NCBI RefSeq assembly: GCF_029872155.1
Contig: NZ_JARXLA010000005.1
Span: 1-64,000 of the forward strand
DNA: 64,000 nt
Source of the DNA: Hyphomicrobium sp. D-2
GTDB lineage: Bacteria > Pseudomonadota > Alphaproteobacteria > Rhizobiales > Hyphomicrobiaceae
Direction of reading: 5' to 3'
Of the stretch, positions 22,719-28,021 are shown piece by piece (position 1 is the first letter of the stretch; every line of letters starts with the position of its first letter). The translations under genes were made by a program, and so were the position numbers. The notes under the pieces are model-generated. The model was not told where the DNA came from, searched no databases, and saw only the letters and a program-made list of their open reading frames with translations.

Positions 22719-24209
22719 ATGCAAAACGCGAAGCAGACGGTTGCAGCAGGTGGACGCGGAAATTCCGTGCGGCACGTATGGGCACGATTGGGGGCGTTGG
22801 CGCTTCTGATGGCCGGAGTGCTGTCGACGCCGGTATTCGCGCAGCGCCCTGACGATAGCTACAAGGGCCCAGGGGCTGGAGGTGGTTTCGATAGCCAGCT
22901 CCAGCAGATGCAAGCCCCGCCGCCGCAAATGAGTGGCGGTGGTGGCGGACTTTCGGGCGGCACTTCCGGCGGTGGTCTGCAGGGACGCCAGACGCAGGGC
23001 ACCATCGCGCCAATCCCGATTGCGATTCCGTTCTTCCTGGGGCCCGATCCAAAGCTGGCGGCGGATGTCGCCGAGGTTGTGACCGCCGACTTGGGCGGCT
23101 CGGGTCTGTTTGATCCGCTCGACCGTGCGTCATTCCTGGAGCAGGTGCGGGACGTCAACGCCGCGCCCCGCTTCGGTGATTGGCGCGCCATTCGTGCCGA
23201 TGCTCTGGTCGTGGGTGATGTCGCGCGCGGCCCCGATGGGCGAATCATTGCGCAGTTCCGGCTGTGGGACGTGACCACGGGCAAGCAGTTGGCTGGGCAG
23301 CGGTTCGCAACCGCGCCGCAGAACTGGCGTCGTGTCGGTCACATCATCGCCGATCAGGTTTACAAGCAACTCACCGGTGAATCCGGTTACTTCGATTCCC
23401 GCGTAGTTTTCGTCGATGAAACCGGCCCGAAAGATCGCCGCGTGAAGCGTCTGGCGATCATGGATCAGGATGGCCACAACGTGCGCCTGCTGACCAAGGG
23501 CAACGAGCTGGTGCTGACGCCGCGCTTCAGCCCGACGAATCAGGAAATCACCTTCATGTCCTATACGAGCGGACAGCCGCGGGTGTTCCTGATGAATCTG
23601 GAAACAGGGCAGCGCGAAGTCGTCGGCGATTTCCCGGGCATGACGTTTGCGCCGCGATTCTCTCCGGATGGGCAGCGCATCGTGATGAGTCTGCAGTCGG
23701 ACGGCAATTCAGCGATCTTCGAAATGGATCTGCGCAGCCGACAGCGGCGCCAGCTCACGCCGGGCACCTCGATTGATACGGGGCCAAGCTATTCACCCGA
23801 TGGCCGGCAGATCGTGTTCGAGACCGATCGCGAAGGCACCCAGCAAATTTATGTAATGAATTCCGATGGTTCAGGTGCACATCGGATCAGTCGCGGTGAG
23901 GGGCGTTACTCAACGCCCGTGTGGTCGCCACGCGGCGACTACATCGCCTTCACCAAGCAGTATGGCGGCCGCTTCCTTATCGGCGTCATGCGTCCGGACG
24001 GCACCGGCGAGCGTGTGTTGACCGAGGGCTACCACAACGAGGGCCCGACCTGGGCGCCGAACGGCAGAGTTCTGATGTTCTTCAGAGAATCGCAGGGCGC
24101 GAACGGCGGAGCACAGATCTTTTCGGTCGATTTGACCGGCTACAACGAGCGAATAATCCGTACGCCATCTTTCGCGTCGGATCCGGCTTGGTCACCGCTC
24201 CTGAATTGA
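22719..24209 (+). CDS. tolB: TolB, periplasmic beta-propeller
   Basis: 496 residues, longer than E. coli TolB (430) because of an N-terminal extension and a Gly/Gln-rich insert (residues ~45-90). Signal peptide core [19 protein letters not shown]. TolB N-domain ([20 protein letters not shown]), then propeller blades with [39 protein letters not shown] and [13 protein letters not shown]. Binds Pal and colicin-type partners in the periplasm. The ATG at 22719 falls just after repeat family 1. Confidence 0.96.
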
Positions 24210-24480
24210 TACGGCATTTAACTTGGTGTTAACCATTTCAGATGCTGTATTATGCACAAGTGCTCCGAGATTCGTTTGGCGTTTTTCATATGCAAGAACA
24301 ACGACTTGCGAATGTCGGGGTAGTGCTGCGCGTGCCGTTTGAAAAGGTGTGAAATGGAGTTGCATTTTCGCATCTACGTGGTTGGAAAACAGAGGGATAA
24401 TCGCCTCTGTTCTTGATCAAGACGAGCCGCGCCAGTACGCCAATATATGGCTAGTGCCGATAAAGCATCAGGAGATTACC

Positions 24481-24612
24481 ATGCAGGTGAAGGGGCTGAT
24501 CGTTTTGTCAGCAGTGGTTGCGGCCATTGCGCTAAGTGCTTGCCGCCGTGAAGAACCGGTGCCGTTGAAGCTGGGCGCCGAACTACCTGTCGCCACGCAG
24601 CCCGCTCGCTAA
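24481..24612 (+). CDS. Mini-lipoprotein, tandem copy 1
   Basis: 43 residues: a type II signal peptide with Lys4 and hydrophobic core ending in lipobox LSAC (Cys21), then a 23-residue mature part RREEPVPLKLGAELP and so on, identical in length to copies 2 and 3. A predicted envelope lipoprotein of unknown function; its size recalls entericidins, but no sequence relation is seen. Ribosome site CAGGAG seven bases before the ATG. Lies 271 bases after tolB. Confidence 0.8.
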   Translation: MQVKGLIVLSAVVAAIALSACRREEPVPLKLGAELPVATQPAR

Positions 24613-24652
24613 GAGCCGGGGCAAGGCCAGGACAACATTAGGAGAAAAAGCT

Positions 24653-24778
24653 ATGAAGAGTGCACTCGTACTCGCCGCCGTCGTTGCTGCTGTTGCTCTG
24701 GGCGCTTGCCGTCGTGAAGAGCCTGTTCCGCTGAAGCTCGGCGCCACTGACCTGATCACCACCGAAGTTGCTCGCTAA
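24653..24778 (+). CDS. Mini-lipoprotein, tandem copy 2
   Basis: 41 residues: MKSALVLAAVVAAVALGAC with lipobox LGAC, then the mature 23 residues RREEPVPLKLGATDLITTE plus VAR. Ribosome site AGGAG about 9 bases before the ATG. Forty bases after copy 1. Very close to copy 3 at DNA level, which indicates recent duplication or gene conversion. Confidence 0.82.
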   Translation: MKSALVLAAVVAAVALGACRREEPVPLKLGATDLITTEVAR

Positions 24779-24836
24779 GCATTCCGCTTAGTGAGTGGGG
24801 ACATTTAGCCTACTTACCTTTTTAGGAGATACGACG

Positions 24837-24962
24837 ATGAAGGGGGCCATCCTTGTTGCGGCCGTTGCTGCTGCTGTTGCTCTGGGCGCTTGCCGCCGTG
24901 AAGAGCCGGTTCCGCTGAAGCTCGGCGCTACGGACGTGATCACCACCGAAGTTGCTCGCTAA
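24837..24962 (+). CDS. Mini-lipoprotein, tandem copy 3
   Basis: 41 residues: signal peptide with lipobox LGAC and mature part RREEPVPLKLGATDVITTE plus VAR, differing from copy 2 in one mature residue. Ribosome site TTAGGAGAT. Last of the three; two terminators follow, so the array ends here. Function unknown. Confidence 0.82.
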   Translation: MKGAILVAAVAAAVALGACRREEPVPLKLGATDVITTEVAR

Positions 24963-24977
24963 TTTGTGAGCTAACTT

Positions 24978-25005
24978 CCTCTCAGGTTTCCTGAGGGCGA
25001 TTTTT
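24978..25005 (+). terminator. Terminator after mini-lipoprotein array (first hairpin)
   Basis: CTCAGG/CCTGAG stem with a three-base loop, a short GGCGA and then five T, 16 bases after copy 3. Confidence 0.7.
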
Positions 25006-25052
25006 AAGGCCGAGGCTAGCGTGAAGAACGCTGGCCTCGGCCTTGTCGTTTT
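25006..25052 (+). terminator. Terminator after mini-lipoprotein array (second hairpin)
   Basis: Long stem AAGGCCGAGGC/GCCTCGGCCTT with inner AGCG/CGCT and a T-rich tail ending in five T. The double terminator suggests strong transcription of the array. Confidence 0.8.
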
Positions 25053-26086: not shown

Positions 26087-26596
26087 ATGGCGTCGACAAC
26101 TTGGTTCGCTCGTGGGACGCGCCTGCTCGCCGTCGTTCTTTTAGGAGCGTTGGCTGCCGGCTGCGCCAACAATGAGAACCAGCCCAACTCGCAGTTAACC
26201 GGCCGTGATGGTTCGGTCGCGCCGGGTACGCATCGCGACTTCTCTGTGAATGTGGGTGATATCGTCTACTTCACAACCGACAGCACGGATCTTACGCCGG
26301 AAGCTGTTGCAACCCTGCAGAAGCAGGCGCAATGGCTGCAGCACTATCCGCAGTACACGGTGACGATCGAAGGCCACGCGGACGAGCGCGGTACGCGTGA
26401 ATACAACATTGCGCTGGGCGCACGCCGTGCCACCACGGTGCGCAACTTCCTGGCGCAGAACGGCATCAACGGCGCGCGTATCCGCACCATCTCCTACGGT
26501 AAGGAACGCCCGGTTGCGGTATGTAACGACATCTCGTGCTGGTCGCAGAATCGCCGAGCACAAACGGTGCTGAACTCTCGCACCGCCGGAAACTGA
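26087..26596 (+). CDS. pal: Peptidoglycan-associated lipoprotein Pal
   Basis: 169 residues. Signal peptide with core RLLAVVLLGALAAGC (lipobox AAGC), then an OmpA-type peptidoglycan-binding domain: VYFTTDSTDLTPEA, VTIEGHADERGTREYNIALG and ARRATTVRNFL, with the Asp and Arg that hold diaminopimelate. Anchors the outer membrane to peptidoglycan and binds TolB. The ATG at 26087 begins the lipoprotein signal. A terminator follows. Confidence 0.97.
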   Translation: MASTTWFARGTRLLAVVLLGALAAGCANNENQPNSQLTGRDGSVAPGTHRDFSVNVGDIVYFTTDSTDLTPEAVATLQKQAQWLQHYPQYTVTIEGHADERGTREYNIALGARRATTVRNFLAQNGINGARIRTISYGKERPVAVCNDISCWSQNRRAQTVLNSRTAGN

Positions 26597-26675: not shown

Positions 26676-26708
26676 AAACACCTCGGGGCAACTCGGGGTG
26701 TTTTTTGT
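26676..26708 (+). terminator. Rho-independent terminator after pal
   Basis: AACACCTCGG and its complement around GGCAA, followed by six T. About 85 bases after the pal stop. Confidence 0.88.
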
Positions 26709-26935
26709 TTCTGCGGTCAGTGCCGGAAACGGCGCACCAGCGCGCCCGCGTAATTATGTCGACATGCAACGATTTGGTGTCACGGCCGCACGCCCGCGAT
26801 TGCTCCCGATGCGCAAATCTGTTGCGTGCATGCCGCACATCCACAACAGCATGTGACATGGGCAAAAACGGCAAAGAATCGCCGCAAACGCTGCGCAATG
26901 ATCAGCGTGTTTTCAGCGGTTTGTCCGTGGGTGGA

Positions 26936-28021
26936 ATGATGGTTCGTTTGGCTTTTGCGAACAGTCGGTGTGGTTTCGTTGCAGCGTGCTTCGGTGTTGC
27001 CGTCGCGGTCTGGGCGCCTGTTGTTCCCGCGTCGGCGGAGCCTTCCCATGCAGGAACTGGCTATTCGTTGTTCAGCGACGAGCAGCGCGCACGCGAGCTC
27101 TATCTCGACGGCATTGAAAAGCTGCAGGCGGGGCATGAGGATGTCGCGCGCCGGATGTTTGAAACTGTTGTGCTGCAGTTTCCCGAAACGGGGTCGGCGC
27201 AGCGGGCACAGAACGAGCTTTCACGGCTTGCGGACAGCGCGTTTCATTCCGTAGCGGAAGTTCCGGCCATCGCCCGTGCAGGCACGCCGCCGCATTATGC
27301 TGAAGCTGCAGCTGTCCCAACGGAAGCTGGAACATTCGATCTGCAGGCGCATGGTCTGGACGCGCGTTACGATGCGGCTGCGGTTGCTGTAACCGGCGAG
27401 ATGACCACCGGTTCGTTGCCGCTTCCTGTTGTGCAGCAACCGCCGAAAAATCTGTATCAGGGCTTCCGTCCTACACCCGCATGGGATCAGGAGGTGCGCC
27501 GGAACGCTTCGATCCAAACGCGGATGCGCCTCGAAGCCGGGGACCGTGTGTTTTTCTCCGCCGGCAGTGCCGAGCTTGGCAGCCGTGCGCGCATGGCCCT
27601 CGCAGCGCAGGCGCTCTGGCTGAAGCGCTGGCATGAGTTTGAAGCTACTATCGCCGGATACGCTGACGAGCCAGGCTCCGATGAGGACAACGTGGCTTTG
27701 TCGGTCAAGCGCGCCACCGCCGTGCGCCAGCGTCTTATCGATGAAGGTGTTGAGCCTTCCCGTTTGGCTGTCGCGCCTCACGGCCGCTCCGGTCGAGTTG
27801 CAGTCTGTTCCGATGCGGGCTGCCAGGCACAGAACCGCCGCGTCATAACGGTGGTGTTCGTCGCCGGTACGCATGCGCGTCTTGGCCTGACGCCGCCGCC
27901 GATTGCCACCGCCGCGCGGATTGTTGAGGATGACGCGACTGCGATCCACCACGAACACCGCGCCGGGGCCGACGGACACGATAATTCCGCATTGGTCAGG
28001 CAGGTGGGGGTGTCGCGTTGA
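26936..28021 (+). CDS. Second Pal-like protein: TPR-like N-terminus fused to OmpA domain
   Basis: 361 residues. Signal peptide to about ASAEP, then a short TPR-like helix pair (ARELYLDGIEKLQAGHEDVA, RRMFETVVLQFPETGSAQRA) like the repeat of CpoB, a linker, and an OmpA domain (VFFSAGSAELGSRARMAL, IAGYADEPGSDEDNVALS, VKRATAVRQRL, then AQNRRV). The peptidoglycan-contact Asp and Arg are kept. Not a lipoprotein: no lipobox Cys. A ~45-residue charged tail ends it. Start chosen at the first of two ATGs after GGTGGA. Lies between pal and cpoB and seems to mix features of both. Confidence 0.82.
   Translation: MMVRLAFANSRCGFVAACFGVAVAVWAPVVPASAEPSHAGTGYSLFSDEQRARELYLDGIEKLQAGHEDVARRMFETVVLQFPETGSAQRAQNELSRLADSAFHSVAEVPAIARAGTPPHYAEAAAVPTEAGTFDLQAHGLDARYDAAAVAVTGEMTTGSLPLPVVQQPPKNLYQGFRPTPAWDQEVRRNASIQTRMRLEAGDRVFFSAGSAELGSRARMALAAQALWLKRWHEFEATIAGYADEPGSDEDNVALSVKRATAVRQRLIDEGVEPSRLAVAPHGRSGRVAVCSDAGCQAQNRRVITVVFVAGTHARLGLTPPPIATAARIVEDDATAIHHEHRAGADGHDNSALVRQVGVSR

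Follow-up and report, generated by a model that had tools for sequence, protein, structure and literature searches.

Very short lipoproteins encoded between tolB and pal in Hyphomicrobiaceae, with linkers that match between paralogues

We conclude that the tol-pal cluster of the Hyphomicrobiaceae holds a real and conserved family of very short lipoproteins that is absent from Pfam, NCBIfam and PHROGs as searched, and that tandem members in one genome carry the same mature linker despite diverged synonymous codons. Sequence comparison establishes the genes themselves, their lipobox, their conservation and synteny, a conserved promoter pattern upstream of them, and the matching of linkers without matching of codons. 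This matching between paralogues is the most informative clue, and it points to specific recognition. The reading that we prefer, with a probability of about one half, is that the products act as membrane-tethered short linear ligands that would dock, through the epitope P-[ML]-K-L-G, on a specific partner in the envelope. The initial annotation had offered an anchored ligand or a membrane spacer. The first fits the matching linkers, and a pure spacer leaves both these and the conserved P-[ML]-K-L-G unexplained.

The array and its regulatory surroundings

The window analyzed here is a stretch of 64,000 nucleotides from Hyphomicrobium sp. D-2. It contains three tandem genes for tiny lipoproteins between tolB and pal, and their coordinates and sequences had been given correctly in the initial annotation. 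Copy 1 (24481..24612, + strand), recognized from its reading frame and its homologues, encodes a 43-residue precursor with a signal of the 'MQ(G)xKGLIV' type (signal MQVKGLIVLSAVVAAIALSA, mature part CRREEPVPLKLGAELPVATQPAR). Copies 2 (24653..24778, +; MKSALVLAAVVAAVALGA and CRREEPVPLKLGATDLITTEVAR) and 3 (24837..24962, +; MKGAILVAAVAAAVALGA and CRREEPVPLKLGATDVITTEVAR) each encode a precursor of 41 residues. All three frames lie on the same strand and show an N-terminal Lys, a hydrophobic stretch and a lipobox with a terminal Cys, and in each the mature part has 23 residues and starts CRREEPVPLKLGA. Each copy has its own AGGAG ribosome-binding site, as had been noted (24470..24474, 24640-24644 and 24824-24828, +), and similar sites are found in homologues. 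Copy 1 is indeed diverged, with 68% protein identity to copy 2; to call copies 2 and 3 almost identical is a little strong, as they share 85% identity in protein and DNA alike. Copy 2 is 100% identical in Hyphomicrobium sulfonivorans S1, and a single-sequence search of the own genome (E <= 10) returned the three array places and no others.

The gene order upstream of the array is tolQ, tolR, tolA, tolB, with tolB (22719..24209, +) identified by PF04052 (TolB_N), PF07676 propeller repeats and synteny; pal (26087..26596, +) follows downstream, identified by PF00691 (OmpA) and synteny. Among the neighbors, Pfam recognized TolQ/ExbB, TolR/ExbD, TolB_N with its propeller, the OmpA domain of Pal, a second OmpA protein and a TPR protein; tolA has no Pfam match and was assigned from its position and low-complexity look alone. 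The second OmpA-domain protein (26705-28021, start uncertain) is encoded between pal and the TPR gene, has no obvious lipobox and occurs in many Hyphomicrobiaceae loci. The open reading frame beyond these genes is probably tilS. In Rhodobacter sphaeroides, tolQRAB and pal-cpoB are described as separate units (PMC9275681), and the array is placed between the genes corresponding to these two units.

A sigma70-like pattern that probably serves as a promoter is conserved upstream of copy 1. In the window it occupies 24413..24441 (+), with -35 TTGATC at 24413-24418, a 17-nt spacer and -10 TACGCC at 24436-24441; the missing T at -7 is consistent with alphaproteobacterial promoters as described in PMC8407463. 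Of 72 distinct upstream regions from the family, 63 contain the string CTTGATC-N17-TA, and among the other spacings from 12 to 22 only N13 occurs, in 4 regions. Farther upstream lies an element that is possibly an activator site (24359..24390, +), made up of GTTGCATTTTCGCATC (24359-24374) and TGGAAAAC (24383-24390) and matched nowhere else in the own genome at <= 3 mismatches. Across the same 72 regions, CTTGAT was found in 67, the first part of this element in 44, GGAAAA from its second part in 61, and all three in 35. The distance from the -35 to the first extracted start codon is 63-73 nt in 60 regions and 142-352 nt in 8, at least some of which have a first copy that was lost or not extracted. 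Of 22 loci from other families, 17 combine CTTGA with a relaxed version of the first element; CTTGA is missing from L072, L143, L152, L157 and L158, and in L069 CTTGAT lies further upstream. An inverted repeat, GGC-TAGT-GCC (24449..24458, +), lies close to where the transcript is expected to begin and recurs in a number of homologues, as judged by eye.

A CtrA-like box, TTAA-N7-TTAA (24218..24232, +), directly follows tolB and precedes the promoter pattern by almost 200 nt. It occurs in 28 of the 72 upstream regions, whereas spacings of 3-6 and 8-11 occur in 0-1 of them and shuffling predicts 0.28. Among 48 tolB-pal gaps that have no lipoprotein gene, 2 contain the box. The motif given for CenR is TGA-N8-TGA (PMC9275681). 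At the other end, the double terminator that had been proposed exists as two terminator-like hairpins in a hairpin scan (24979..24997 and 25005..25045, +, the second with a stem of 17-18 bp); shuffled versions of the region contain 2.5 such sites on average, so the pair in the window is not significant by itself. Pooled loci do show an excess: in 36 of 91, the 150 nt that follow the last copy contain a terminator-like site, compared with 11.3 expected in shuffles. No such site was found in 59 gaps between copies, which are shorter than the 3' regions scanned, and Rfam gave no match around the array.

Conservation, range and copy number

In a pattern search and reading that themselves select for a lipobox, the family has the features of predicted SPII-type lipoproteins (basic N-terminus, hydrophobic stretch, lipobox Cys), and the lipobox Cys is invariant in alignments of 41 and 34 members. 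Arg occupies +2 in 126 of 133 distinct proteins, and Arg or Lys occupies +3 in 125; 126 contain the motif [PE]-x-K-(x)-hydrophobic-G, and none has a second Cys or a Trp. The mature length is 22-24 residues in 117 of them, and the C-terminal residue is Arg in 109 (as in the window copies), Lys in 8 and another residue in 16, which makes 117 basic ends. The ratio pN/pS is 0.35 for copy 1 and 0.40 for copy 2, indicating purifying selection (signal 0.29; mature parts 0.39 and 0.46), as calculated from non-independent pairs with dS of 0.05-0.8. Homologues, conserved position and pN/pS beyond chance together confirm, at the level of sequence, that the genes are real. AlphaFold2, run on the monomer, predicts a confident signal helix, pLDDT of 57 and 53 for the mature blocks, a single short helix at residues 35-40, and neither a strand nor a confident helix in the mature part. 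This unconfident prediction agrees with the earlier view that the mature peptide is too short to fold alone.

That no described family corresponds to these proteins also held up: Pfam, NCBIfam and PHROGs produced weak matches only, mostly over the signal peptide. In NCBIfam, searched with 30 of the 34 rows of alignment A2 and the window copies, every listed match (E <= 0.1) fell below its cut-off, two A2 rows having been scanned without cut-offs shown; the best E-value, 0.00059, came from a model of a cobalamin enzyme whose cut-off is 282 bits. A search of solved structures returned nothing below E 0.4, and a search of the open-licence literature on small lipoproteins with tol-pal or Hyphomicrobium gave none between tolB and pal. 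The entericidins EcnA and EcnB are encoded by tandem genes as two lipoprotein precursors of a size similar to the array's. They differ in that the array's mature part has no confident predicted helix and that PF08085 matched none of 34 members (E <= 0.1) and none of 13 genomes, with matches in the E. coli, Caulobacter and Deinobacterium controls. DalA, an alphaproteobacterial lipoprotein of the outer membrane, where the array's products are probably located too, belongs to the divisome of Rhodobacterales and had Pal in its immunoprecipitate; it is another gene, set apart by its published distribution, with homologues predicted in 93% of Rhodobacterales and 3% of Hyphomicrobiaceae (all as reported in PMC10470522).

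The check suggested in the initial annotation, a search for homologues outside the strain that stay beside tolB and pal, gave a clear answer. Profile A1 detected the family in 97 of 103 Hyphomicrobiaceae genomes (E <= 0.01), including 75 of the 76 good ones and 24 of 25 genera, and tolB lies directly upstream in 81 of the 84 loci with upstream sequence (81 of 89 non-redundant loci, 5 others being contig ends). Members span Hyphomicrobium and Filomicrobium, and the best match among named loci is in H. sulfonivorans S1. A search with a single sequence gave matches in 50 of 60 relatives at E <= 1, some of them clearly chance. The arrangement tolB-lipoprotein-pal is seen in 70 of the 89 loci, which establishes genetic linkage to tol-pal; a contig end takes the place of pal in 7 and of tolB in 5, tolB is present without a nearby pal in 4 (L061, L112 and L115 of genus g20, and L140), and 3 have neither neighbor despite sequence being present (L070 and the ectopic single copies L116 and L118). 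In genus g20 (L061, L112, L233, L236), pal and the second OmpA gene are on another contig than tolQRAB, and the lipoprotein gene stays behind tolB; this split was established in G026 and G077, G076 being too fragmented to judge.

Several members lie elsewhere. The match at L070:1987-2115 (f9, 56% identity) lies on a contig of 4.8 kb and is flanked by neither tolB nor pal. In Hyphomicrobium, single paralogues at ectopic sites (L116:6001, L118:5989, L161:5153, L162:5257, L163:4841, L164:4762; L118 and L163 have one and the same sequence) retain CRRE...P-M-K-L-G but have linkers of different lengths. A second copy in f30 (L167) and a diverged open reading frame in f18 (L171) were also located away from the cluster.

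Lipoproteins adjoining tolB or pal were read in 12 families of the order beyond Hyphomicrobiaceae; the families with one by locus reading are f1, f2, f8, f11, f16, f18, f25, f29, f30, f31, f32, f38 and f45. An order-level profile search matched 48 of 297 genomes, six of which were discounted as false: the match in G181 is the start of Pal, those in G046, G199, G291 and G309 cover signal-peptide positions only, and that in G270 has two internal stops. At class level (289 genomes, four of them listed as the own order) there was no credible match outside the order; two weak ones sit, judging from the match table, in open frames of 216 and 357 codons. When 60 more genomes of the order were taken at the tolB end, the ORF rule gave no lipoprotein in any of the 57 with a recognized tolB or pal, the rule being imperfectly sensitive (it missed L147 although the profile matches there). 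The 48 measurable tolB-pal gaps from genomes without a lipoprotein by this rule have a median of 206 nt, and 43 are <= 330 nt. Three loci (L185, L189, L226) have large gaps of 768-1192 nt and no lipoprotein ORF by the rule.

Carriers cluster together, with few exceptions, in a tree built from 93 Pal sequences, and a single origin with mainly vertical inheritance is therefore likely. Within genus g53 of f29, L191 and L224 differ from L153 and L154, some carrying the lipoprotein gene and others a tolB-pal gap of 207-220 nt without it, and this mixed presence suggests loss.

Triplication is true of the window. As read, it is confined to the window's genus, which accounts for all ten cases of three tandem copies; the commonest number in Hyphomicrobiaceae is two. 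Complete tolB-pal gaps from all families, in a list that contains repeats, comprise 62 with two copies, 34 with one, 10 with three and 2 with none by the ORF rule. Other families have a single copy in 21 of the 22 loci that were read with copies. Some single-copy counts are extraction failures (L055, for example, has a second copy), and L078 has a single copy together with an apparent remnant of copy 1. In several other genera the profile search gave three to five matches, part of which were located.

Agreement of linkers between paralogues

The comparison of paralogues covered 54 non-redundant loci with at least two copies, six of them with three. Over the 14 residues that open the mature part, copy 1 and copy 2 from a single genome are 92% identical. 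When copies 1 and 2 come from different genomes the identity is 72%, and for one and the same copy across genomes it is 75% and 72%. Signal peptides behave otherwise: copies 1 and 2 share 69% within a genome and 64% across genomes, and the same copy in another genome (72% and 78%) is closer than the paralogue at home. Tails are 58% identical at home and 48-55% otherwise. A permutation test gave 0 of 10,000 re-pairings for linkers, signal peptides and tails alike, with a re-pairing that ignores phylogeny. The linkers are identical across all extracted copies in 34 of the 54 loci (35 if L043 is counted, where the start of Pal was picked up as a third copy). When the mean Tol/Pal distance is removed, distances for copy 1 and copy 2 correlate at 0.91 for linkers, 0.19 for signals and 0.33 for tails (35 loci that have all six of TolQ, TolR, TolA, TolB, Pal and the second OmpA protein); the copy 2 linker and its own signal peptide, under the same control in 35 loci, correlate at 0.35.

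Codons do not follow this pattern. Where copies share a residue at mature positions 1-13, their codons agree in 58% of cases within genomes and 59% between them, and recent gene conversion is thus unsupported as a general cause. In L046 the copies have 13 of 13 residues in common and 1 of 12 codons. In L050, L057, L101 and L113 they have 10 of 12 codons in common, so conversion may act locally; in L040 and L041 the copies are identical across the whole protein and look like the outcome of recent duplication or conversion. On a 57-locus TolQ-TolB-Pal tree, read by eye, parallel changes in both copies appear in several clades, including linkers that became one residue shorter in two or more clades, and exchanges of T/K, T/E, A/V and M/L. 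The 54 loci may correspond to perhaps ten independent linker changes.

Because the linkers match and the codons do not, the data favor matching at the protein level, either to a partner in common or between the copies themselves, over recent conversion. The main alternative is old conversion followed by synonymous saturation, which could also leave such a pattern. We read the agreement of linkers as selection for one recognition surface per genome.

Possible roles of the peptides

Under the preferred reading, a dedicated transcription unit between tolQRAB and pal would give rise to one to three tiny lipoproteins, with the array probably strongly expressed. The precursors would be exported, presumably through Sec, then acylated and cleaved at the lipobox Cys, and, given Arg rather than Asp at +2, probably transported to the outer membrane. 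The product would be a lipid-anchored and mostly unfolded periplasmic peptide of about 22-24 residues, consisting of C-R-[RK]-E as a basic foot, a linker that is short and variable, the strongly conserved epitope P-[ML]-K-L-G and a usually basic C-terminus, and it would act as a ligand that docks on a specific envelope partner. We propose that the linkers of paralogues agree because both proteins have to fit one common surface, either on a single receptor or on each other in a mixed assembly. Single-copy lineages, the apparently copy-free part of the f29 genus and L070, away from tolB and pal, count against the ligand reading. A more elaborate picture, in which order-specific, vertically inherited, fold-less lipopeptides with a genome-specific recognition code and a private promoter region conserved in nucleotide sequence across families would form a self-recognizing layer or a receptor-bound array beside Tol-Pal, is one that we put forward tentatively.

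Tol-Pal proteins, suggested as partners in the initial annotation, are plausible targets by location. A peptide that engages TolB or Pal at the outer membrane and adjusts the Tol-Pal cycle would explain the strong synteny and the persistence of the g20 lipoprotein behind tolB though pal is on another contig (G026, G077). Linker divergence shows no excess covariation with these proteins, however: across 35 loci it is not tracked beyond phylogeny by TolQ, TolR, TolA, TolB or Pal (partial r -0.13 to 0.14; TolB -0.07/-0.13, Pal 0.04/0.03, at low power), and the second OmpA protein does not stand out either (0.22). For tails, the same 35 loci gave 0.35 both for copy 1 with TolQ and for copy 2 with Pal, and -0.28 for copy 2 with TolR. 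As no tested Tol-Pal protein follows the linker, Tol-Pal as the target is unproven. The array also has its own promoter pattern, synteny can be inertia, the epitope is retained in ectopic Hyphomicrobium paralogues that do not lie beside tolB, and L070 is without both neighbors. We therefore regard a Tol-Pal accessory as possible but doubtful.

The copies may instead pack together without any separate receptor, as a lipid-anchored homotypic oligomer or a coat lining the inner face of the outer membrane. Identical linkers in 34 of 54 loci, copies that track each other (r 0.91) and no tested Tol-Pal protein, and the tandem arrangement behind one promoter pattern would all be expected of such a coat. 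It accords poorly with the single copy in several family loci and in 21 of 22 loci of other families, and with a monomer model that predicts no strand or confident helix in the mature part, and we consider it rather improbable.

We think it unlikely that the peptides assist outer-membrane barrel assembly in the manner of LptM (YifL; PF13627/NF047847), with a short lipoprotein N-terminus that would bind a barrel or translocon. LptM has a longer mature part than the array peptide. The analogy lies in a small lipoprotein whose conserved N-terminal mature residues touch an outer-membrane partner, LptD, as described for LptM in PMC10567701. In contrast, PF13627 matched none of 34 members (E <= 0.1), NF047847 matched two of the 34 over the signal peptide only and at about half its cut-off (13.4 and 14.1 bits against 27.7), and the motif and gene neighborhood of LptM are unlike those of the array.

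An abundant lipopeptide that serves as a spacer without a specific partner, in place of Lpp, is quite unlikely, even though strong ribosome-binding sites, tandem copies and a conserved promoter pattern would suit it. Braun's lipoprotein, Lpp, is likewise a small lipoprotein of the outer membrane, the probable location of the array's products, and is said to contact TolB in E. coli. It is a longer coiled coil, and its C-terminal Lys cross-links to peptidoglycan. The array peptides, at 23 residues and with no Pfam match, end in Arg in 109 of 133 cases and not in this Lys, and a bulk role leaves no place for the conserved epitope and the matching linkers. Homologues of Lpp are said in PMC10470522 to be missing from most Alphaproteobacteria, which would leave room for a substitute.

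A leader peptide regulating pal is highly improbable: the array is upstream of pal, but its lipobox and mature motif are conserved, there is a terminator-like excess after it, and it persists where pal is elsewhere. A YnbE-like strand extending a YdbH lipid-transfer bridge is largely refuted, for while YnbE (PF13617) is, like the array proteins, a small lipoprotein with a periplasmic peptide, and two relatives touch DUF6726, which we presume to resemble YnbE, at 18.8 and 14.4 bits (cut-off 27), YnbE was found in 0 of 40 and YdbH (PF11739) in 0 of 25 relatives including the own genome (E <= 0.01), the E. coli and Caulobacter controls matching. No genome matched in a DUF6726 search whose control also failed to match.

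The Tol-Pal system is central to envelope constriction. In Alphaproteobacteria, where Lpp homologues are mostly absent according to PMC10470522, it may carry more of the load. The tol-pal cluster of nearly all the Hyphomicrobiaceae genomes examined contains an extra gene or gene pair that Pfam, NCBIfam and PHROGs do not recognize, and the parts list is thus incomplete in this family. The matching linkers offer a direct handle for finding the partner.
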